A DNA stretch of 64,000 bases, taken from the NCBI GenBank assembly GCA_007695035.1, contig REEO01000009.1:1-64000 (forward strand). Reading direction: 5' to 3'. Below the pieces are notes generated by a model. That model did not search any database. It worked only from the letters and a program-made list of their open reading frames with translations, and was not told the origin of the DNA. Positions 8,890 through 64,000 of this stretch are shown here, one piece after another; within the stretch, counting starts at the first letter, position 1, and every line of letters starts with the position of its first letter. A program made the translations under genes and the position numbers. This DNA is from Saprospirales bacterium (GTDB lineage: Bacteria; Bacteroidota; Bacteroidia; Chitinophagales; Saprospiraceae).

Positions 8890-9244
8890 CAATTTGATAC
8901 GGAATATAAAGTCATTAACTGCATTTTGGTTTAAATATTTTGGATGTAAAGTACGGTGAAAAGTCCCAATGTTTCTGAAAACCCGGGTATTTGATCGAAG
9001 TGCCCTAAAATATTAACATTAATTAAGAATAGCCGCCTTGATCCGATGATTTATTACACTCGTCAACCAGGTTTTTAATGGTTAATGGGGTGCCCTGTCA
9101 ACAGCTCTTCAAAGTTGTGAAAATGTTCATACACCAGCCCCCAACGGAGTCATACAGCAAAAAGATGAGCCTACCCCTCCCCAAAGCACAGGGGACAAGA
9201 ATCTCTTGGGGTGCTTCGCCCATCGACCGATCCCCCCTGAGAAC

Positions 9245-9263
9245 TGCACCCTGAAGGGGTGCA
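9245..9263. repeat. Small perfect hairpin, possible REP-like element
   Basis: TGCACCC and GGGTGCA form a perfect 7-bp stem with a 5-nt loop TGAAG. No T-run follows on either strand, so it is not a standard terminator. Its placement in a gene-free stretch fits a short dispersed palindrome. Confidence 0.45.
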
Positions 9264-9375
9264 ACAACAATTTAGTACTGGGGAAAATCCTGGAAAATCA
9301 ACATTCCCTACGAATAGATTAACTGTCGGCTACATCGACGTAGCAGCCTGCCCCTAAGCTTTGGTGGGCTCTCAA

Positions 9376-9410
9376 AAAGCCATTAACCATCGGCCATGGA
9401 CCATCAACCG
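9376..9410. repeat. CCAT-rich quasi-tandem repeat
   Basis: The motif CCAT followed by 1-3 bases recurs about four times (CCATtaaCCATcggCCATggaCCATcaacc). The phasing of about 7 bases is regular. It resembles short intergenic repeats seen in other environmental Bacteroidota, but that comparison is from memory. Confidence 0.4.
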
Positions 9411-9420
9411 CTCCGCGAAT

Positions 9421-10500
9421 TCACCTCCTCAGCCAGGCCACCACAGGTTTGTGGTCGGAGAAATCGCCTCCTATAATTTCGTGCCGGATCACTTTAAATT
9501 CCGGATCTGCGAGGATCAGATCTATGCGCAGGAATGGGAGGGGCCCCTTGTAGGTAACTCCTAGCCCACGGCCCCGCTCTGTGAAAGTGTCCTTTCTGCC
9601 GTAGGATAGTTTTCTATAAATGTAAGAAATAGGGACATCGTTTATGTCGCCGGCAATGATGACTGGGTATGGGGAGGTTTTAGCATGCTCCAAAACGGTT
9701 GAGACTTGTTCCACCCGGATGGAGGCTGCCTGTTGGTAGTTTCTGAGTATTCCCCACAGGGTTTTAGCGGTTTCCTCGTCAAAATCCAGCCCTCTTTCCC
9801 TGATCTTTCGACTGTCGTCAGTTACCTGATTGGTTTGTAGGTGCAAATTATAAACTCTGACCACTCCTTTTTTCGGTATGTTTAAATCCGCCCATACCAC
9901 GGAGTTCTCGTAGTTTTCAAAAGTGAAGTAACCACGGTCCAGTACTTCGTGATTGGTGAGAATAGCTGTCCGATAGGGGCGATTGTTGATGACGTTGGCG
10001 TATGGCAGGACTTCTAACAACCACTCGCCTATGTCGTGAACGTACTCCTGCAAGCAGAGAATGTCGGGTTTCTTATGGTTTTTTAAATAAGCAGCCAGCG
10101 AAGCAGTGTTGTGCCTATTTTCAGCCTGGATATTCCAGCCGTAATTGATGTTGAAGGTGGCAATCTTTAAATCCGATTGTTTAGGCTGTTGTGATGTTGA
10201 ATTAAACCCCATCAGGCTGGAGTGCAGCGGCCAGCCAACCGCAATGATGAAAACAATGACCAGGCCTGTGCGGTAATTGGCCCGGTAGAGTAGCCAAATT
10301 AACATGAGAAAGTTGATGCCAAGAATCACCGGATAAGCGACGATGGCCACAATTCCCGCGGCGAGGTGGAGTGGATTGAGTAGGGGAGACAGATAAGTCA
10401 AAATGGTAATTAAGCCCCAAGTGGCGATCAGGCCAATTTTCCAATCCCTCTTCTTTATGTCGGTTTTCGCTTTCAACTTATATTTCTGCTTGTGTTTCAA
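9421..10500 (-). CDS. Membrane-anchored endonuclease/exonuclease/phosphatase (EEP) family protein
   Basis: A 359-residue protein with a basic cytoplasmic N-terminus, three hydrophobic helices (about residues 22-95) and a C-terminal EEP domain. The catalytic signatures are present in order: KIATFNINYGW, ILCLQEY with the metal-binding Glu, NLHLQTN with the His, AGDINDVP, LRIDLIL and DFSDHKPV. EEP enzymes cut phosphodiester bonds in nucleic acids, phospholipids or phosphoinositides. This membrane-anchored subtype is common in Bacteroidota and its substrate is unknown. The catalytic domain is predicted to face the periplasm after three helices, which would argue against a DNA substrate; the topology is inferred. 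Confidence 0.9.
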   Translation of the reverse strand: MKHKQKYKLKAKTDIKKRDWKIGLIATWGLITILTYLSPLLNPLHLAAGIVAIVAYPVILGINFLMLIWLLYRANYRTGLVIVFIIAVGWPLHSSLMGFNSTSQQPKQSDLKIATFNINYGWNIQAENRHNTASLAAYLKNHKKPDILCLQEYVHDIGEWLLEVLPYANVINNRPYRTAILTNHEVLDRGYFTFENYENSVVWADLNIPKKGVVRVYNLHLQTNQVTDDSRKIRERGLDFDEETAKTLWGILRNYQQAASIRVEQVSTVLEHAKTSPYPVIIAGDINDVPISYIYRKLSYGRKDTFTERGRGLGVTYKGPLPFLRIDLILADPEFKVIRHEIIGGDFSDHKPVVAWLRR

Positions 10501-17752: not shown

Positions 17753-17865
17753 AGTATTATAATTTGAGTGAGTTAAGTGTAGCTACTATAACTCGACTAA
17801 TCAAAAATGGTTCAGCCTCACGCTTGGGCAGTAGTTAGAAAATTTTGACTGTTGTTGGGAGGAAC

Positions 17866-18225
17866 TCAGCGGTGATTCACTTCATAGCCCTCCGCTCGAA
17901 TGGCCTCGGCTATTTTTCCCGGATTCACCTTTTTCGGATGGAAAATGAAAGTAGCCCGCTCGCTATCGAGATCTACATTGACTTCAGCCACTCCGTCAAA
18001 TTTCTCTATGGTGTTTTGGACGGTGGTCCTGCACATGTTACACCCCATTTCAAGCACCTCAAAAGTGATGTTTTCCCCCTCGTTAATCCAGGCTGGGGGT
18101 GTGTATTCTGTTTTGGCCTCTTTTTTGGAATCCGCCCCTTTATTTTCCTGTGCGCACTCACTCGCGCAAGAAAAGAGCATCATACTCAAAAAAAGTGTGG
18201 AGGCACCTATTGCTATTGATTTCAT
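17866..18225 (-). CDS. Lipoprotein with heavy-metal-associated domain
   Basis: A 119-residue protein with a lipoprotein signal ending LFSC (about residue 20), a charged low-complexity linker, and a C-terminal HMA ferredoxin-like domain. The metal motif GCNMC (about residues 60-64) binds Cu(I) or Zn(II), and GYEV near the end completes the fold. The domain normally passes metal to P-type ATPases or senses it. Here it is anchored outside the cytoplasm, so an envelope copper or zinc carrier role is inferred. It follows the aminopeptidase gene by 12 nt and may share its transcript. Confidence 0.88.
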   Translation of the reverse strand: MKSIAIGASTLFLSMMLFSCASECAQENKGADSKKEAKTEYTPPAWINEGENITFEVLEMGCNMCRTTVQNTIEKFDGVAEVNVDLDSERATFIFHPKKVNPGKIAEAIRAEGYEVNHR

Positions 18226-18237
18226 CCTCAGTTATAT

Positions 18238-19698
18238 TTATTTAGCCATTAATTTTTCAATCTCTTCCACTGTTCTCGGCGTGCCGCCGGAAAGCATAAG
18301 ATAACCTGTGTCTGTAATTAACAGGTCATCCTCTATTCTTATTCCAATTCCTGCGTATTTCTCATAAATTGGGCGGACCTGTTCTTCAAATTCCCTCAGT
18401 TCCTCTAGGCTGGCCCACTGGCCTAACAGTTCCTCCAATTGATCAATCCGGTTTTCTTCAAGGTACAAACCGGGCTCCAGCGTAATCACCATGCCCTCTT
18501 CCAGAGGTCTGCCTTTTATGTCTTTGTTAAGGAGGTAGAAATCCCGATCTGCACGGATAAAATCGGCAAAGTGGCCGACATCGTGCACGAACAAACCGAT
18601 GTAGTGAAGCATTCCGTAGTGCACATAAAACCGCTTTTGCCACCACGAATCCAGATCTGTTATCAGTCCCAGATCGTAGAGTCCTTCGAAAATGACGTCC
18701 ATGGCCCGGTGATGGGGTTCCAATATGCCCGTTCCCGGTTCGATAATCTCCAGGGCTGCTTCCTGACTTGCGAGAACAAGTTCGTAAAGTTTTCTCTGTT
18801 CATCTGAGAACTTTCCATTGACGGGAATGGTGCGGGTTACATCTGCCGTGTAATGGTTGCATCTCGCACCTACATCTATGAGAATCAAATCTCCATCCAG
18901 GAGTTGGCGGTCGTAAAAAGGGTAGTGCAGATAGGTGGCATTGGGTCCCGAACCTACGATGGGATTGAATCCATTGTCGCAATTGTGCTTTGTAAAAACG
19001 TATTCAATTTCGGCCTTGACTTCGTACTCATACTGACCGGGGCGTATATTTTTCATGACTCTGTTGTGGGCAAGGGCGGTGACCTCCACGGCATAGGTCA
19101 GCCAATGCTGCTCCCATTCGTCCTTGATTACGCGCATTTCATGCATGATTTCTGACAGGTCCGTGTGCAGAAGCAGATTACTTCTGTGAGAATACCTGTT
19201 CTCGAGTCGCTCTATCACCATTTCGTCACCAAAAGGCACGGAAATGCTGGCATTTTCTCTCATAAACCTGGTCAGGTACCGATCCAGGTATTCCAATGGG
19301 TAGGCCTCGTCGGCTCCGAATTTTTCCCGTGCATCCTCAAGGCTGTGACGAGGACCGTCCCAGAGAACTTCCGTGGGATTGGGTTCCCTCAAAAACAGCA
19401 CGAAAGGACTGGGTGAAGATGGGTCCAACAGCGCTATGGCAGGCTCCTGATCAAATCCCGTGGCGTAGTAAAAATTATGTGGATCTGTGGTGGAAAAAAG
19501 GGCTACCTCCCCTTGCATTTCATTCATTATATTTTGGCGCCTTTCCTCAAATACTTCCCCCAAAAATTCCGGTGGTCGCTCGCCGGGCAGATCTATGTTG
19601 TGAAGTGTAGATGTCGTATTTGGCTCGGCAGTACTCCCGCCCGGCAGAAAAAAACCGACCAGGAGAATTGCGATAAGTACTGTTTTGATCGTGATCAT
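18238..19698 (-). CDS. Exported Xaa-Pro aminopeptidase (M24 family)
   Basis: A 486-residue protein with an N-terminal signal peptide (cleavage around GGSTAEP) and the two-domain aminopeptidase P layout. The N-terminal creatinase-like domain comes first (FYYATGFDQEPAIALL). The C-terminal pita-bread domain has the metal ligands LILIDVGARCNHYTADVTR (two Asp), HDVGHF (His) and MVITLEPGLYLEE plus GIRIEDDLLI (Glu). The enzyme removes N-terminal residues before proline using two Mn or Zn ions. The signal peptide implies periplasmic or surface action in peptide scavenging. It precedes the HMA lipoprotein on the same strand. Confidence 0.93.
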   Translation of the reverse strand: MITIKTVLIAILLVGFFLPGGSTAEPNTTSTLHNIDLPGERPPEFLGEVFEERRQNIMNEMQGEVALFSTTDPHNFYYATGFDQEPAIALLDPSSPSPFVLFLREPNPTEVLWDGPRHSLEDAREKFGADEAYPLEYLDRYLTRFMRENASISVPFGDEMVIERLENRYSHRSNLLLHTDLSEIMHEMRVIKDEWEQHWLTYAVEVTALAHNRVMKNIRPGQYEYEVKAEIEYVFTKHNCDNGFNPIVGSGPNATYLHYPFYDRQLLDGDLILIDVGARCNHYTADVTRTIPVNGKFSDEQRKLYELVLASQEAALEIIEPGTGILEPHHRAMDVIFEGLYDLGLITDLDSWWQKRFYVHYGMLHYIGLFVHDVGHFADFIRADRDFYLLNKDIKGRPLEEGMVITLEPGLYLEENRIDQLEELLGQWASLEELREFEEQVRPIYEKYAGIGIRIEDDLLITDTGYLMLSGGTPRTVEEIEKLMAK

Positions 19699-51515: not shown

Positions 51516-51673
51516 TCTTAAACACCCACCTTAGAACCACTTTGCCCCATTTTTGTCTTAATGAACGAAACTTTGGCCGTTTGACTTTTCTTATTGACCT
51601 GTATCGCAAATTTGAGTGTTGAAGGGAAGTGCCAAAATTCACTGTCGTTGATGACTCAATCACATTTTTTTCG

Positions 51674-53170
51674 ATGTCAAAAACCAAAACAGTAGAAGAG
51701 GGTAAAAAAGCCGTGGTCATTGGCAGCGGGGTCGCTGGACTTGCAGTGGCGGTGAGATTGGCTGTCAGGGGTTTTGAGGTGGTGGTCTTTGAGAAAAATG
51801 CCAAAGCCGGTGGAAAATTAACTGAGCTGCAGTTAAGCAATTACCGATTCGATGCCGGTCCCTCCCTTTTTACGATGCCGCAGTGGGTGGATGAATTGTT
51901 TGAGATCGCCGGTGAAAAACCGCAAGAACACTTCAGGTATAATCGATTGCCCGTGGTCTGTAAATACTTTTGGCAGAATGGAAAAAAATTGGAAGTGAGC
52001 GCTGATTTGGGAAAAACAGACAAAAGGGTGGTTGAAGAATTTGGAGAGAAGCCCGGAGCGCTGGGAAATTACCTCCAAAAAAGTCGAAGAAAGTACGAAT
52101 TGGCCGGAGAGATTTTCCTGAAAAGACCTCTTAATCGTTTGAAAACATGGAGTGATAAGAAAGTGATCCGGGCCCTGGGGCACCTCGGAAAGTACGACTT
52201 ATTCAAAAGCCTTCACAAAACCAACCGTTCTCATTTTGAATCCCCCGAAATGGTCCAGCTTTTTGATCGCTACGCTACCTACAATGGGAGCGATCCTCAC
52301 CGCTGCTCGGGTATGTTTTCCATGATTCCCCACATCGAACTTCATGAAGGTGCTTATGCGCCGGAGGGCGGCATGTATGCGATCACTGAAGCGATTTATC
52401 AGTTGGGTCGCAAACTGGGAGTTCGGTATGTCTTTGGAGAAGAGGTGGCGGAAATAATCCATCAAAAAAACCGCGTGAAAGGCGTTGAATTGAAATCCGG
52501 GGAGTGGGAATTGGCGGACCTGGTGGTCAGTAATATGGATGTGCAGCTGACTTACGAAAAGTTGCTTCCGGAGGTTAAAATGCCGCGTTTGAGAAAGTAT
52601 GAGGAGCGATCGAGTTCCGGCTTTATCTTTTACTGGGGAATCGATCGAAATTTCCCGCAACTGGATGTGCACAACATCTTTTTCAGCAAAGACTACAGGA
52701 AAGAATTTGAAGCCATTTCCCGCGGTGAATTCAGCGATGATCCGACCATCTATGTCAATATCACCTCAAAGTACAATCCCGCTGATGCTCCGGGGGGCTG
52801 CGAAAATTGGTTTGTAATGATAAATGGCCCCAATGACAGCGGCCAAAACTGGGACGAACTTCGCGCCGAACTGCGAAAAAAGGTGGTAGAGCGAATGAAT
52901 ACGGTTCTTAATGTGGACCTTGAGAATTATATTGAATGCGAGGAAGTCCTTGACCCGGTTCGACTGGCTATCAAAACACTCTCTGCAGATGGTGCACTTT
53001 ACGGAAGCAGCTCCAACAGTATGATGGCGGCATTTCTCAGGCAATCAAATAAACACAGTCGCCTGAAAAATCTTTATTTTTGCGGGGGAAGTGCACATCC
53101 CGGGGGTGGCATTCCGCTATGTCTCTCTTCTGCCCGCATTGTTGATGAGTTGTTGGCCGAAGACCTCTGA
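51674..53170 (+). CDS. Carotenoid desaturase, CrtD-like (1-hydroxycarotenoid 3,4-desaturase)
   Basis: A 498-residue FAD oxidoreductase of the CrtI/CrtD family. FAD binding is AVVIGSGVAGLAVAVRLAVRGFEVVVFEKNAKAGGK, split over residues about 12-50. The C-terminus has SADGALYGSSSNSMMAAF and NLYFCGGSAHPGGGIPLCLSSARI. The GALYG and CGGSAHPG elements recall CrtD rather than phytoene desaturase, which normally has AAFSL/WFRPHN-type motifs; this is from memory. CrtD would introduce a 3,4 double bond into a hydroxylated carotenoid. It is the first of three plus-strand carotenoid genes; a phytoene desaturase role cannot be fully excluded. Confidence 0.85.
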   Translation: MSKTKTVEEGKKAVVIGSGVAGLAVAVRLAVRGFEVVVFEKNAKAGGKLTELQLSNYRFDAGPSLFTMPQWVDELFEIAGEKPQEHFRYNRLPVVCKYFWQNGKKLEVSADLGKTDKRVVEEFGEKPGALGNYLQKSRRKYELAGEIFLKRPLNRLKTWSDKKVIRALGHLGKYDLFKSLHKTNRSHFESPEMVQLFDRYATYNGSDPHRCSGMFSMIPHIELHEGAYAPEGGMYAITEAIYQLGRKLGVRYVFGEEVAEIIHQKNRVKGVELKSGEWELADLVVSNMDVQLTYEKLLPEVKMPRLRKYEERSSSGFIFYWGIDRNFPQLDVHNIFFSKDYRKEFEAISRGEFSDDPTIYVNITSKYNPADAPGGCENWFVMINGPNDSGQNWDELRAELRKKVVERMNTVLNVDLENYIECEEVLDPVRLAIKTLSADGALYGSSSNSMMAAFLRQSNKHSRLKNLYFCGGSAHPGGGIPLCLSSARIVDELLAEDL

Positions 53171-53206
53171 GGAGTCCGGATTTCGCGAAACCAAACAAAT
53201 GAAGCG

Positions 53207-53860
53207 ATGGATAAAAATTTGACAATCAAAATGAGCATTGCCGTTCTGGCGATTCTCTATGCCGTTGGTGCGGTGGGGATTGCCTTTCGCCTGGTTCCCG
53301 GACTCGCGGCCTTGACTTCCCTGCATCTGTTTATCAGTTTCCTGTTTCTCGTTTACTGGCACGAAAAAAAGGGAGTGTTTTTCTGGCTTTGGCTTATGAT
53401 TGCCTATCTTATCGGGACTTTGGTAGAGTATCTGGGAGTGCAATATGGCTTTTTATTCGGCAGCTACGAATACGGAGCTAATATGCGCCCTGTAGTCGCC
53501 GGAACTCCCATTATCATAGGGATCAATTGGATAATTTTGTCTTATTGCTTTACGCGTATAGTAGCTCGCTGGGCCCCGCGGAAGTTCAGTATGTTTGTTA
53601 TTGCTGCCATTTCAGCGACTCTGATGACAGCCTTTGATGTACTGATAGAACCCGTTGCCATTGAGCTCAACTTTTGGTCCTGGGAAAAAGGCTATGTTCC
53701 GCTGACTAACTATGCCGGCTGGTGGATAGTATCACTGATACTGAACTTCCTTTTTGTGAAAATGGGGGTTGAAAATGGCCGCAACCCCATCGCATTTTGG
53801 GTGCTGCTTTTTCAACTGTTTTTCTTTGTCTTTGTTTATGTGTTCAGAGTAATAGCATAA
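53207..53860 (+). CDS. Carotenoid biosynthesis membrane protein, CruF-like (DUF422)
   Basis: A 217-residue protein with about six hydrophobic helices and the DUF422/CruF pattern YLGVQYGFLFGSYEYGANMRPVV, GTPIIIGINWIILSYCF and ATLMTAFDVLIEPVAI, then WEKGYVPLTNYAGWW. CruF-type hydratases add water across the carotenoid 1,2 bond (1-OH). Its neighbours CrtD-like and CrtZ are consistent with that role in monocyclic carotenoid synthesis. The gap to crtD is 37 nt and to crtZ 5 nt, so the three likely form one transcript. Confidence 0.85.
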   Translation: MDKNLTIKMSIAVLAILYAVGAVGIAFRLVPGLAALTSLHLFISFLFLVYWHEKKGVFFWLWLMIAYLIGTLVEYLGVQYGFLFGSYEYGANMRPVVAGTPIIIGINWIILSYCFTRIVARWAPRKFSMFVIAAISATLMTAFDVLIEPVAIELNFWSWEKGYVPLTNYAGWWIVSLILNFLFVKMGVENGRNPIAFWVLLFQLFFFVFVYVFRVIA

Positions 53861-53865
53861 GAATT

Positions 53866-54348
53866 ATGATGACAGCTTTGTGGTACGGATTGATTGTGAT
53901 ACTCACATTTTGCGCAATGGAGTTTATGGCTTGGTTTGCGCACAAATACATTATGCATGGCTTGCTTTGGAGATGGCACAAGGATCACCATGACCCTAAA
54001 TTCAAGGAGGGCCACTTTTTTGAAAAAAACGACCTTTTTTTTATGGTCTTCGCCATACCGAGCGCTGCGGCTTACATCATTGGCCTGGCTACTCCTCATT
54101 TGTGGCTGTTGTTCGTGGGCATTGGTATATCCATCTACGGACTCGTGTATTTCCTGATTCACGATGTTTATATTCACCGCCGCTTCAAGTGGTTTAAGCA
54201 ATTGGATAGTCGCTACTCAAGGGCCATTTTGAGAGCGCATGGAAAGCACCACGCCAAAAAGACCAAGGAGGATTGTGAATCCTTCGGTCTTTTAGTGGTA
54301 CACCCTAAGTTCTTCAGGGACGATTACAAAGTCAGAAAGAGCAATTAG
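53866..54348 (+). CDS. crtZ: Beta-carotene hydroxylase
   Basis: A 160-residue diiron membrane hydroxylase with the full His-box set: HKYIMH, WHKDHHDP, FLIHDVYIHRR and AHGKHHAKK. Hydrophobic helices lie near residues 4-20, 55-75 and 80-100. It adds 3-OH groups to beta-ionone rings, giving zeaxanthin-type products. The ATG at 53866 (or 53869) is preferred over an upstream frame start inside cruF. Last gene of the carotenoid trio. Confidence 0.94.
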   Translation: MMTALWYGLIVILTFCAMEFMAWFAHKYIMHGLLWRWHKDHHDPKFKEGHFFEKNDLFFMVFAIPSAAAYIIGLATPHLWLLFVGIGISIYGLVYFLIHDVYIHRRFKWFKQLDSRYSRAILRAHGKHHAKKTKEDCESFGLLVVHPKFFRDDYKVRKSN

Positions 54349-59338: not shown

Positions 59339-61741
59339 TTGAAGATAGAGATAAGTATTAATTATCGGGTTTCTTTTCTCCGGACATTTGTTTGGAGCCT
59401 GTTATTGATTTGTCAGATTCCGGGGCTTTTTTCTCAAAATTCCCAGGTGGTGATCAATGAATTTATGGCTTCCAACGGCATTACAATCGCCGATGAGGAC
59501 GGGGATTTTGAGGACTGGATAGAGTTGTACAATCGCGGTGATGAAGCAGTTAGTTTGCAGGGATATTATCTGTCAGATGATTATGACAATCCGCTGCGCT
59601 GGCGGTTTCCCCTGGTTGAATTGGATCCCGGTGAATTTTTACTGGTTTTTGCTTCCGGGAAAAATCGCTTCGGCACGGAACTGCACACCAATTTTAGGAT
59701 TTCTGCCGGGGGTGAGCCTTTGCTCCTTTCTGATCCGGACGGCCAATTATTAGACTACATCCCTGCTGTTGATTTGCAAAGAGATCAGGCATTTGGACGG
59801 ATACCCGATGGTGGTGCTGAGCTTGTAGTACTCGATTTTCCAACTCCGGGCACGTCCAATGTGGCGCCTTTTGACACGGAATTGTCGGTTTCTCATCCAT
59901 CCGGTTTTTACAATCAGCCATTTGATTTGGAAATTATTGCGGACAGAGAAGATGTGGTGATTTACTACACCACCAATGGCAACAGTCCGGGGCCCGGAGA
60001 CCTAACCTATCAGGCCAGTATTTCTTTGGCATATTCGGATTCTATTGAGAATAACCCAATTATTGAAATCCCAACCAATGCACCCTCCACTCAGTGGTGG
60101 TTTCGGTGGAGACCTCCGGGAGAGAAACTGTTTCGGGGGCAGGTTGTCAGGGCGAGGGCTTTTCGCGGTGATAACCCGGTATCCGAGGAAATCACCAAAA
60201 CCTATTTTATCGATGTGAAATTTCAGGAGCGGTTTGATTTGCCCGTAATTTCCATAGTCATGGACGAGGAATATTTGTTTGACTTTGAGACCGGATTGTT
60301 TGTTCCGGGAAAAGCCTATGAGGAAAACCCGGTTTTTAATTTTCCCTGGTCCGGTGGCAATTTTCACAATCGCGGCAGAGAATGGGAGCGCGAAGCTTCC
60401 TTTTTTTATTTCGATGAAGACCTGGAGCCGCAAATTGCACAAAGGCTGGGTGTCAGAATTCACGGAGGAGGCAGCAGGTCAATGCCATTAAAGTCTCTAC
60501 GGCTTTACGCCCGGGAAAGTTATGGCGAAGAGTACATTCAATATCCCTTTTTTCAGGATGGGCCGGATGTGTTTAGAAGGTTGCTTTTGCGAAATTCCGG
60601 ACAGGATTTTGTGCGCACCATGTATATGGATGGACTCACGCATTTGATGATCGAGGATCTGGATATAGAGTATCAGCGCTACAGACCTTCCGTGCTATTT
60701 ATCAATGGTGCTTACTGGGGCATAATCAATATCAGGGACCGGTTTGATAAACACCATTTTTACTTACACCATGGCGTGGAGGAAGAGAATCTGGATTTAT
60801 TGGAATTCGGAGGCTACGAAGTTATCGAAGGAGAAAATGAAAGCTATATATCCATGATGAATTTTGTCCGAAACAATTCCCTGAAGGATGAAGGAAATTA
60901 CAGGATAGTAGAGGAAATAATAGATGTGGATAACTTCATTGACTACTATATAGTGAAGATGTTTATTGCCACTTATGACTGGCCGGGGAACAATATCAGA
61001 TTTTGGCGGGACCGATCGATTGATGGCAAATGGCGCTGGATTTATTTTGACAATGATGACGCCCTGTCGGACTTGTTTTTTGATCCCTATGAGCACCTTA
61101 TGGATTTATCCGACGAACCCTGGCCCAATCCACTTTGGAGTACGGAGTTGTTTCGCAATCTGATCGAGAGTGAAATATTCAGGCAAAAATTTGCCGACGC
61201 CATAAACTACCACCTCAGATATACCTTTAATCCTGAAAGGACAATGGAGCGGGCCTATGAGGTGGCAGAGGCCATTCGTGAGGAGATTCCACATCATATC
61301 GAAAGATGGGGGTTTCCTGAAAGATTCAGCGATTGGGAAAAGTACAGCCTGGAAACCCTGCAGTTTTTAGAAAAGCGCCCCTGTGTTTTCCTGGAGATGT
61401 CAATGGCCTTTTTTGGTTCAGATTTTGGCCTGGATTCCCTCGAACACTGTTTTACAGACACGGAAACGGGACAGAGGGGTGCGGACCACATAGTGATTTA
61501 TCCCAATCCCACCACTGATTTGCTTACTGTCCGTGCTCAAAATTCCTTTTCTACAGAGCAGATTAGAATCGTGGATGTAATGGGGAGGATTTACATGACC
61601 ATCAATGAGCGGTCCTTGTTGTTGCCTGGTCAGGAGATAAGTCTGTCAGTGGTTGACCTCCCCACAGGGTATTATATTTTGGAAGTTGTTTTTGGTTCAG
61701 GAGACGGAACCAGGGTGCGACATCCATTTATAAAACAATAG
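59339..61741 (+). CDS. Lamin-tail / CotH-like surface protein with T9SS sorting domain
   Basis: An 800-residue exported protein. After a signal peptide (cleavage after GLFSQ) come a lamin-tail domain (VVINEFMASNGITIADEDGDFEDWIELYN, split over residues 36-64) and a chitobiase/Fn3-like domain (about 180-280). A CotH kinase-like domain follows (HGGGSRSMPLKSLRLYARES near residue 380, LFINGAYWGIINIRDRFDKHHF, RWIYFDNDDALSD). The last 80 residues form a type A T9SS sorting domain with YPNPTTDLLTVRA. CotH kinases phosphorylate secreted proteins. It starts with TTG; no ATG lies close. It should be secreted through the T9SS encoded 12 kb upstream. Confidence 0.9.
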   Translation: MKIEISINYRVSFLRTFVWSLLLICQIPGLFSQNSQVVINEFMASNGITIADEDGDFEDWIELYNRGDEAVSLQGYYLSDDYDNPLRWRFPLVELDPGEFLLVFASGKNRFGTELHTNFRISAGGEPLLLSDPDGQLLDYIPAVDLQRDQAFGRIPDGGAELVVLDFPTPGTSNVAPFDTELSVSHPSGFYNQPFDLEIIADREDVVIYYTTNGNSPGPGDLTYQASISLAYSDSIENNPIIEIPTNAPSTQWWFRWRPPGEKLFRGQVVRARAFRGDNPVSEEITKTYFIDVKFQERFDLPVISIVMDEEYLFDFETGLFVPGKAYEENPVFNFPWSGGNFHNRGREWEREASFFYFDEDLEPQIAQRLGVRIHGGGSRSMPLKSLRLYARESYGEEYIQYPFFQDGPDVFRRLLLRNSGQDFVRTMYMDGLTHLMIEDLDIEYQRYRPSVLFINGAYWGIINIRDRFDKHHFYLHHGVEEENLDLLEFGGYEVIEGENESYISMMNFVRNNSLKDEGNYRIVEEIIDVDNFIDYYIVKMFIATYDWPGNNIRFWRDRSIDGKWRWIYFDNDDALSDLFFDPYEHLMDLSDEPWPNPLWSTELFRNLIESEIFRQKFADAINYHLRYTFNPERTMERAYEVAEAIREEIPHHIERWGFPERFSDWEKYSLETLQFLEKRPCVFLEMSMAFFGSDFGLDSLEHCFTDTETGQRGADHIVIYPNPTTDLLTVRAQNSFSTEQIRIVDVMGRIYMTINERSLLLPGQEISLSVVDLPTGYYILEVVFGSGDGTRVRHPFIKQ

Positions 61742-62043: not shown

Positions 62044-62117
62044 TAGCGTGGGAGAGACTTGAACTCTCGACCTCAGCATTATGAATGCTGCGCTCTAACC
62101 AGCTGAGCTACCACGCC
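62044..62117 (-). tRNA. tRNA-Met (anticodon CAT), probably elongator
   Basis: The minus strand folds to acceptor GGCGTGG with CCACGCT (six pairs plus one G.U at the end), anticodon stem-loop cagcattCATaatgctg, and T-loop AGTTCAAGT. CAT could also be the lysidine tRNA-Ile2; the discriminator A and the G1-U72 pair do not fit an initiator. Encoded CCA is absent. A promoter and a terminator flank it. Confidence 0.9.
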
Positions 62118-62701: not shown

Positions 62702-63268
62702 ATGATAAAACTATTATTATTAATTTCGACTTTCGCACTTGGCCTGGCACAGATAGAGGTATCAGCCCAGGCAACTTTTTCGCTGGACGATGTGCATGAA
62801 TTGAAGGTGGAGGGAACTTCCACTATTCACGATTGGGATATGGTTTCTGAGTTTACCACCGGATCTGCTCGGATTACAACCGACGAACGACGGGTTGAGG
62901 AGTTGCACTCTCTGACATTTGAAATGGAGGTTGAGTCCCTCGAGAGTGGGCGTCGCAGAATGGACAGGAATGCCTACAGCGCACTCGAATCTGATAGCCA
63001 TCCAAAAATCACCTTTGAGTTTAAAAGAGTCAATGGTATAGAAGGACGCACCATTTCTGCAATCGGTGATCTCACTATTGCCGGTGAAACACGCGAGATT
63101 GAAATGGAAGTGACTTACCGTGTCAGAGGAAATGGAGTGAGGTTTTCCGGTAGCCAGGAAATTGCCTTTTCTGATTTTAATATCGATGCTCCAACAGCGA
63201 TGATGGGGACCGTGACCACAGGAGATGAATTGACAATCAGCTTTGATGTAACCTATTCTAGAAACTAA
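62702..63268 (+). CDS. YceI-family periplasmic lipid-binding protein
   Basis: A 188-residue protein with a signal peptide (cleavage after EVSAQ) and a single YceI beta-barrel: HELKVEGTSTIHDWDMVS, FEMEVESLESGRRRMDRNAYSALES, HPKITFEFKRV, IGDLTIAGETREIEMEVTY and ISFDVTY. The barrel binds isoprenoid-like lipids. The GTG at 62696 also opens the frame, but the ATG at 62702 has the better RBS spacing. It is followed after 19 nt by the interrupted porin-like gene. Confidence 0.92.
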   Translation: MIKLLLLISTFALGLAQIEVSAQATFSLDDVHELKVEGTSTIHDWDMVSEFTTGSARITTDERRVEELHSLTFEMEVESLESGRRRMDRNAYSALESDSHPKITFEFKRVNGIEGRTISAIGDLTIAGETREIEMEVTYRVRGNGVRFSGSQEIAFSDFNIDAPTAMMGTVTTGDELTISFDVTYSRN

Positions 63269-63287: not shown

Positions 63288-64000
63288 ATGAAAAAAATAG
63301 TGTTTTTGGCCCTTTTCGCAATGGGCATATCGACAATCGCCACAGCCCAAAATCCCTTGCAGTATTAACGGGCACAGGATAAGACGGGTATCAATATGTT
63401 TGAATCACCCAAAGAAACGGATGTGGAATTTGACGGACTGAGAGTAAAAGTTGGTGGAGCCAATACCCTCCAGTTCCAGGCGCTCGATCACGAAACAGCC
63501 AGTGATCAGGAAATTTTTGACATCGGATCCAATTTCAACCTTGCAACTGCAAACCTGGATTTGGACGTTCAACTCCACGACGGTGTGAGAATGCACCTTC
63601 GCACTTACCTTTCGTCACGCCACCACGCTCAGCCTTATGTAAAAGGTGGTTATCTTCAGGTTGACAGGTTGAACTTCATTCGCGAGGATTTCCTCTCGGA
63701 ATTGATGGACAGAATGACTATTCGCTTTGGTCACATGGAGATTAACTACGGTGATGCACACTTTAGAAGAAGTGACAACGGTTCTACCATCCACAACCCA
63801 TTTGTGGGCAATTACATCATGGATGCCTTTACTACCGAAGTAGGTGGTGAGGTTTACTACCGCCAGAATGGTTTCATCGCCATGTTGGGTTTTGCAAATG
63901 GGAAACTCAATCAAAGTGTTAGAAAGCCTGCACCAGGAGCGCCCGAGACCAAGTTGTCTCTCGTTGCAAAACTAGGTTTTGACAGACAAATCAACGAAGA
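63288..64000 (+). pseudogene. Outer-membrane porin-like gene with an in-frame stop, truncated by window end
   Basis: The gene starts ATG at 63288 with a signal peptide, MKKIVFLALFAMGISTIATAQ, then NPLQY and a TAA stop at codon 27 (63366-63368). The same frame continues open to the end of the window at 64000, over 210 codons, with barrel-like alternation and conserved-looking blocks: GINMFESPKETDVEFDGLRVKVGG, FNLATANLDLDVQLHDGVRMHLRTYLSSRH and TIRFGHMEINYGDAHFRRSDNG. It looks like a real outer-membrane protein, and I judge the TAA to be a nonsense change or error (a TAC or TAT codon is likely). An internal ATG at 63396 would lose the signal. It follows the YceI gene by 19 nt. Confidence 0.72.

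Follow-up and report, generated by a model that had tools for sequence, protein, structure and literature searches.

The last gene of the window (the whole stretch of 64,000 nucleotides analysed here) is, judging from the structure predicted for an intact orthologue, a conserved Bacteroidota outer-membrane porin-like barrel, and the in-frame TAA at its codon 27 is probably a very recent nonsense (null) allele, which may be fixed or may still be segregating; the sister genome would carry another that arose independently. The stop itself, the intact frame around it, the constraint on that frame, the lack of this stop in 96 relatives and the second stop in the sister are direct observations, and we infer from the whole that the codon-27 stop is real and obeyed. 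One early stop in a draft genome is an ordinary kind of event; the second, different stop in the sister, which is new here and did not figure in the earlier sequence-only reading of this DNA, is the sole mildly surprising part. The gene that would have gained this very recent nonsense change is the middle one of a YceI - porin - YceI cassette, whose elements and an upstream neighbour are the following (C93 is the contig, and L002 the locus, on which positions beyond the window are given).

62044 to 62117, minus strand: tRNA-Met, upstream neighbour outside the cassette, from the tRNA search
62702 to 63268, plus strand: upstream YceI lipocalin gene (PF04264), intact, 74.9 bits against a cut-off of 23.7, lying 19 bases before the porin ATG
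63288 to 63365, plus strand: codons 1-26 of the porin gene, a signal-peptide-like start and QNPLQY, with similar starts seen by eye in relatives
63366 to 63368, plus strand: TAA, in frame, codon 27 of the porin gene, aromatic in 90/96 relatives and a stop in 0/96
63369 to 64000, plus strand: remaining porin frame within the window, continuing beyond it to a TGA ending at C93:64541 (L002:4541)
C93:64708-65385 (L002:4708-5385): downstream YceI-like gene, more diverged, recognised by sequence match to the upstream YceI

From the ATG at 63288, the porin begins with MKKIVFLALFAMGISTIATAQ, a sequence that has the look of a signal peptide (judged by eye, no predictor being used) and is followed by NPLQY. 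The sequence-only reading had described a signal peptide and then TAT TAA at 63363-63368, which is exact in the sequence, the signal peptide itself being recognised by eye only, and it had proposed that the frame be followed past position 64000. The contig (190,273 bases, in an assembly of 107 contigs that is 96.6% complete) does run on past the window end, which falls inside the porin gene, and the frame stays open there: 390 open codons follow the TAA, the C-terminus reads ...EAVISF and the last base of the terminating TGA is C93:64541. After the codon-27 TAA, an ATG or GTG first recurs in this frame at codons 37 and 46. If the TAA is obeyed, the product would consist of the signal peptide and a few residues only, and a restart at codon 37 or 46 would yield a barrel without a signal peptide, unable to reach the outer membrane, so that the allele would be expected to be null.

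The part of the porin frame that lies after the stop is conserved beyond chance. A peptide pattern of this part retrieved 396 stretches, 385 of which encode a relative (tblastn E<=1e-3), and in a phylum sample of 392 genomes, 112 (counting that of the window) match the same part at E<=1e-20. A count of codon 27 found Phe, Tyr or Trp in 86 of 90 relative loci, and six further loci on the reverse strand, read separately, carry F, M, W, T, W and Y (4/6 aromatic). The non-aromatic residues among these 96 relatives, counted without the distant paralogues L022 and L024 and the short piece L023, are Ser in three and His, Met and Thr in one each. The expectation that the family would mostly have an aromatic residue at this codon was therefore correct, and orthologues that end at the same place, which the sequence-only reading had named as the observation that would speak against it, are not found among the 96. 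The frame is thus broken where relatives have a sense codon, as is expected of a young pseudogene. A short-peptide gene truly ending at codon 27 is ruled out, as the codon is a stop in no relative of the 96 and conservation extends through the frame behind it, and a misplaced start or a shadow frame is ruled out by homology together with dN/dS. Internal stops are rare in this family: when the part after codon 27 was used as query, an inner stop appeared in one of 97 other family subjects, namely the sister genome G003 (one orthologue is present twice in this set), and in one of 111 other matching genomes of the phylum sample, in which some matches are partial or distant. This last one is G416, in which a single in-frame TAG interrupts a gene distantly related to the porin (47% identity).

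The assignment of the gene to the porins draws on family models and on structure prediction. The window protein scores 17.0 and 14.9 bits against Porin_O_P (PF07396), under the Pfam cut-off of 20.9, and this model is matched at E<=0.01 by 9 of 38 aligned family members (best E-value 8.1e-9); no NCBIfam match above cut-off was found, and a search for sequence relatives in the PDB gave only weak matches to unrelated proteins. An AlphaFold2 model was built for the intact orthologue L026 (76% identical) together with 37 relatives, these 38 rows being drawn from 76 suitable loci. The predicted model of L026 has 16 strands (mean pLDDT 77.5, pTM 0.79), a porin-like fold and a C-terminal aromatic residue, the features of a 16-strand porin. 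When this model was compared with known structures by Foldseek, OmpT of Vibrio cholerae ranked first by E-value, followed by OprP and OprO, and then by PorB, Omp32, OmpF and others. OprP and OprO (PF07396) are, like the predicted protein, outer-membrane barrels ending in Phe, and their structures (OprP 2o4v, OprO 4rjx and 4rjw) occupy ranks 2-4, with TM-scores of 0.64-0.66 by query length to the L026 model and 11-13% identity. They are phosphate-selective porins. The window protein lies below the PF07396 cut-off, and because other porins, such as OmpT, score alike, the substrate of the window porin cannot be inferred.

The nearest genome at hand to the window's own (G000) is G003, whose porin is 96% identical. 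The nearest named relative is the MAG Saprospiraceae bacterium CSSed162cmA_225 (SKLY01000172.1), 96% identical, whose porin stretch is letter-identical to that of G003 (contig C218). The sister gene has a sense codon at position 27 but is interrupted in frame by a different stop, a TGA at codon 80, where 75 of 96 aligned rows have Gly. Between both porins 102 of 1,254 bases differ, without any gap, and the changes are synonymous in 71 codons and non-synonymous in 18, a number that includes both stop codons. The dN/dS ratio over codons 28-418 is 0.069, the regional median being 0.071 for 52 ORFs (the porin included, ORFs with more than 20% unaligned left out), 25 of which are lower than the porin. 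The signs of an old pseudogene, relaxed selection and further lesions, are absent from the comparison with the sister, and because of this low dN/dS and the lack of gaps the porin, if it is a pseudogene, must be very young. A ratio so near the regional median means that normal selection acted on the porin in both lineages up to a very recent time, or acts on it to this day. Because the sister has a different stop, at codon 80, the loss probably happened at least two times in the lineage, and this separate stop would have removed the same gene independently.

The background rate of inner stops (those separated from both ORF ends by over 15 codons) was obtained from 104,980 bases of C93 aligned to G003. 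It covers ORFs contained in an alignment block; those whose non-synonymous differences outnumber the synonymous ones were set aside as not coding-like (23/89 and 16/84, 39 in total). Of the 89 complete G000 ORFs scored in G003, 66 are coding-like (27,891 codons) and a single one has an inner stop, the porin; in the opposite direction, 84 G003 ORFs were scored in G000, of which 68 are coding-like (27,976 codons), with three inner-stop rows, the porin among them. The second of these rows was rejected as a real lesion, its stop preceding the likely true, signal-peptide-like start in a stretch whose codons change mostly non-synonymously, and so was the third, which is an ORF antisense to a 716-codon ORF that we take to be tex. 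Two minus-strand ORFs, 65437-66978 and 71273-72889, which by eye are presumably peptidase-like and histidine-ammonia-lyase-like, are out of frame over long stretches when both genomes are aligned, and from their translations we take the frame shift to lie upstream of the true starts. Thus, no other confirmed inner stop was found in the scored coding-like ORFs of the 105 kb aligned, in either genome. The porin ORF makes up 381 of the 27,891 codons and one random G003 stop would therefore hit it 1.4% of the time; the porin as a repeated target of stops is a suggestive case, and one extra event is what it rests on. Among the ORFs dropped as not coding-like, 16 have inner stops (7 + 9); 12 of the 16 lie 88-100% within a longer ORF and four do not. 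One of these four is a short, fast-changing ORF at about 17.85-18.3 kb (about 17850-18316), with 134 codons (17900-18301) in the window and 157 in the sister. The G000 copy of this ORF ends some 30 codons sooner; the ORF has no Pfam match and may or may not be a gene.

Three options for the TAA had been offered by the sequence-only reading, and a recent nonsense mutation is the one now favoured, read-through being disfavoured, while an assembly or consensus error is an option that we consider unlikely, though by no means negligible. According to this last option, the TAA would be a miscalled base within a gene that is in truth unbroken, the assembly being a draft and probably a metagenomic one, and low coverage or mixed strains could be the cause, for example. 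One base suffices for it, the dN/dS of the porin is at the level of a working gene, as an intact gene with a wrong base would show, and published assemblies often contain artefactual internal stops, as stated in the available part of PMC11017572. However, about 28,000 scored coding-like codons, in the contig or in the sister, are free of any other confirmed inner stop, so that the local error rate is low, and two independent errors would be needed in one gene. The bin name of the sister traces it to the soda-lake read sets of PMC6704655, for which the available part of the paper gives Illumina HiSeq 2x150 sequencing and MEGAHIT. It would be far less probable that full-length porin is still made through the stop, at a reduced level, by read-through or suppression, even if the combination of low dN/dS and an in-frame stop is a pattern that has been discussed as read-through or as short-lived polymorphism (PMC7918605, in the part available). 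Such stops persist only briefly according to the same text, and the codon-27 stop is absent from every relative examined; neither the stop nor its place is conserved among orthologues, as programmed read-through would demand, and therefore nothing points to a programmed signal. A stop-reading tRNA was not found either: 32 of 33 tRNA matches lack a UAA, UAG or UGA anticodon, in a scan that scored 150 of 177 tRNA candidates and left the 33rd match (C67:5232-5306) unscanned. Besides, TAA terminates the upstream YceI gene and TGA terminates the porin, and thus both serve as stops next to the codon-27 TAA. On these grounds (the unshared stop and place, the use of TAA and TGA as terminators in the cassette and the tRNAs) read-through is disfavoured, as is a changed genetic code for this TAA.

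A recent nonsense allele also fits what is known of in-frame stops in bacterial genes, which are widespread and tend to persist briefly, in a polymorphism-like manner, according to the available part of Belinky et al. 2021 (PMC7918605). The stops described there resemble that of the porin in being single and early, in an intact frame with dN/dS well below 1, although the focus of that text, as far as available, is on stops common to at least two species, whereas the sister species studied here stop at different places. A special case of the recent nonsense allele, compatible with it, is that the loss is selected: the porin could at times be a liability, for example as an entry for phages or toxins, and null alleles could repeatedly rise and vanish again. 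The different early stops in two sister genomes with their flanking YceI genes open, and a porin that is otherwise constrained, would agree with this idea, which we can only put forward as tentative, because there are just two events and one of them prompted the choice of the gene. The scan of a viral collection for close relatives of the porin came out empty, which gives no sign of a viral origin and weighs little either way on selected loss, and no paper tying porin, phage receptor and premature stop codon in Bacteroidetes was found in the open-access literature. It is conceivable, in the same vein and with similar doubt, that natural populations of the genus repeatedly acquire null alleles, each short-lived, in the porin of this widespread cassette, the lipocalins being kept intact. 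Two sister species with different early stops in one constrained gene, when the scored ORFs of 105 kb show no further confirmed inner stop, are in any case a hint of repeated pore loss, and the porin offers a concrete case for testing balancing or phage-driven selection in uncultured Bacteroidota.

Four of the eight genomes of the genus (G000, G003, G004 and G005) have both the porin and a YceI match. The searches for a porin orthologue and with the YceI query were negative in G006 (98% complete) and in the less complete G001, G002 and G007 (67-74%), apart from a distant match in G007 that is 32% identical to the porin. Absence of the gene thus occurs within the genus, a point in favour of the loss reading. 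The window's genome possesses a paralogue of the porin that is open and 31% identical (C40:647-1687). In G003 (92% complete) a second copy was not found, the same query hitting only the broken gene, and hence a paralogue standing in for the broken porin cannot account for both genomes.

The YceI - porin - YceI layout is common in Bacteroidota; the complete cassette is found, for example, in cultured isolates such as a Muricauda strain (L050) and a Salegentibacter strain (L049). A YceI-type gene lies within 600 bases of the porin upstream in 54 of 74 testable loci, downstream in 68 of 76 and on both sides in 46 of 68, in a neighbourhood count of 82 loci (80 loci of the pattern search, L002 and L006; the 83rd, L005, repeats L026 in reverse and was removed). 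Up to E 1, PF04264 does not match the downstream YceI-like gene, but this gene and its counterparts share 26-30% identity with the upstream YceI, with E-values per genome of 2e-15 to 2e-18. In G000 as in G003, the frames of the two YceI genes are open, so that decay does not extend to the entire cassette, which speaks against the null-allele reading. According to the available part of PMC9113575, most YceI structures contain isoprenoids, and a system against lipid peroxidation includes one YceI pair; BcnA shields membranes from peroxidation. The lcoA-bcnA-bcnB operon of Burkholderia cenocepacia, described in the same part of that paper, also has two YceI-family lipocalin genes per cluster, but its third gene codes for a cytochrome b561, whereas the window cassette has a porin between both lipocalins. 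A putative joint role of the porin and the two lipocalins could be envelope maintenance or the uptake of small hydrophobic molecules; the open-access literature yielded no paper on their joint function, and the cassette draws attention to a porin flanked by two lipocalin genes.

Other regions of the window deserve mention in their own right. A carotenoid-type cluster at 51629-54348 contains an amine-oxidase/desaturase-like gene (PF01593), followed by a gene for a carotenoid biosynthesis protein (PF04240) and by a third gene that, by eye only and without Pfam support, has the look of a carotenoid hydroxylase. At 59339-61741 a large protein is encoded that has CotH-kinase, lamin-tail and secretion-system C-terminal sorting domains (PF08757, PF00932 and PF18962), and none of the other ORFs among the 52 set against the sister reaches the dN or the dS of this gene. 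The stretch at 9072-9425 has at least 34 further partial matches scattered across G003 (40 of 117 candidates scored), which gives it the look of a dispersed repeat.
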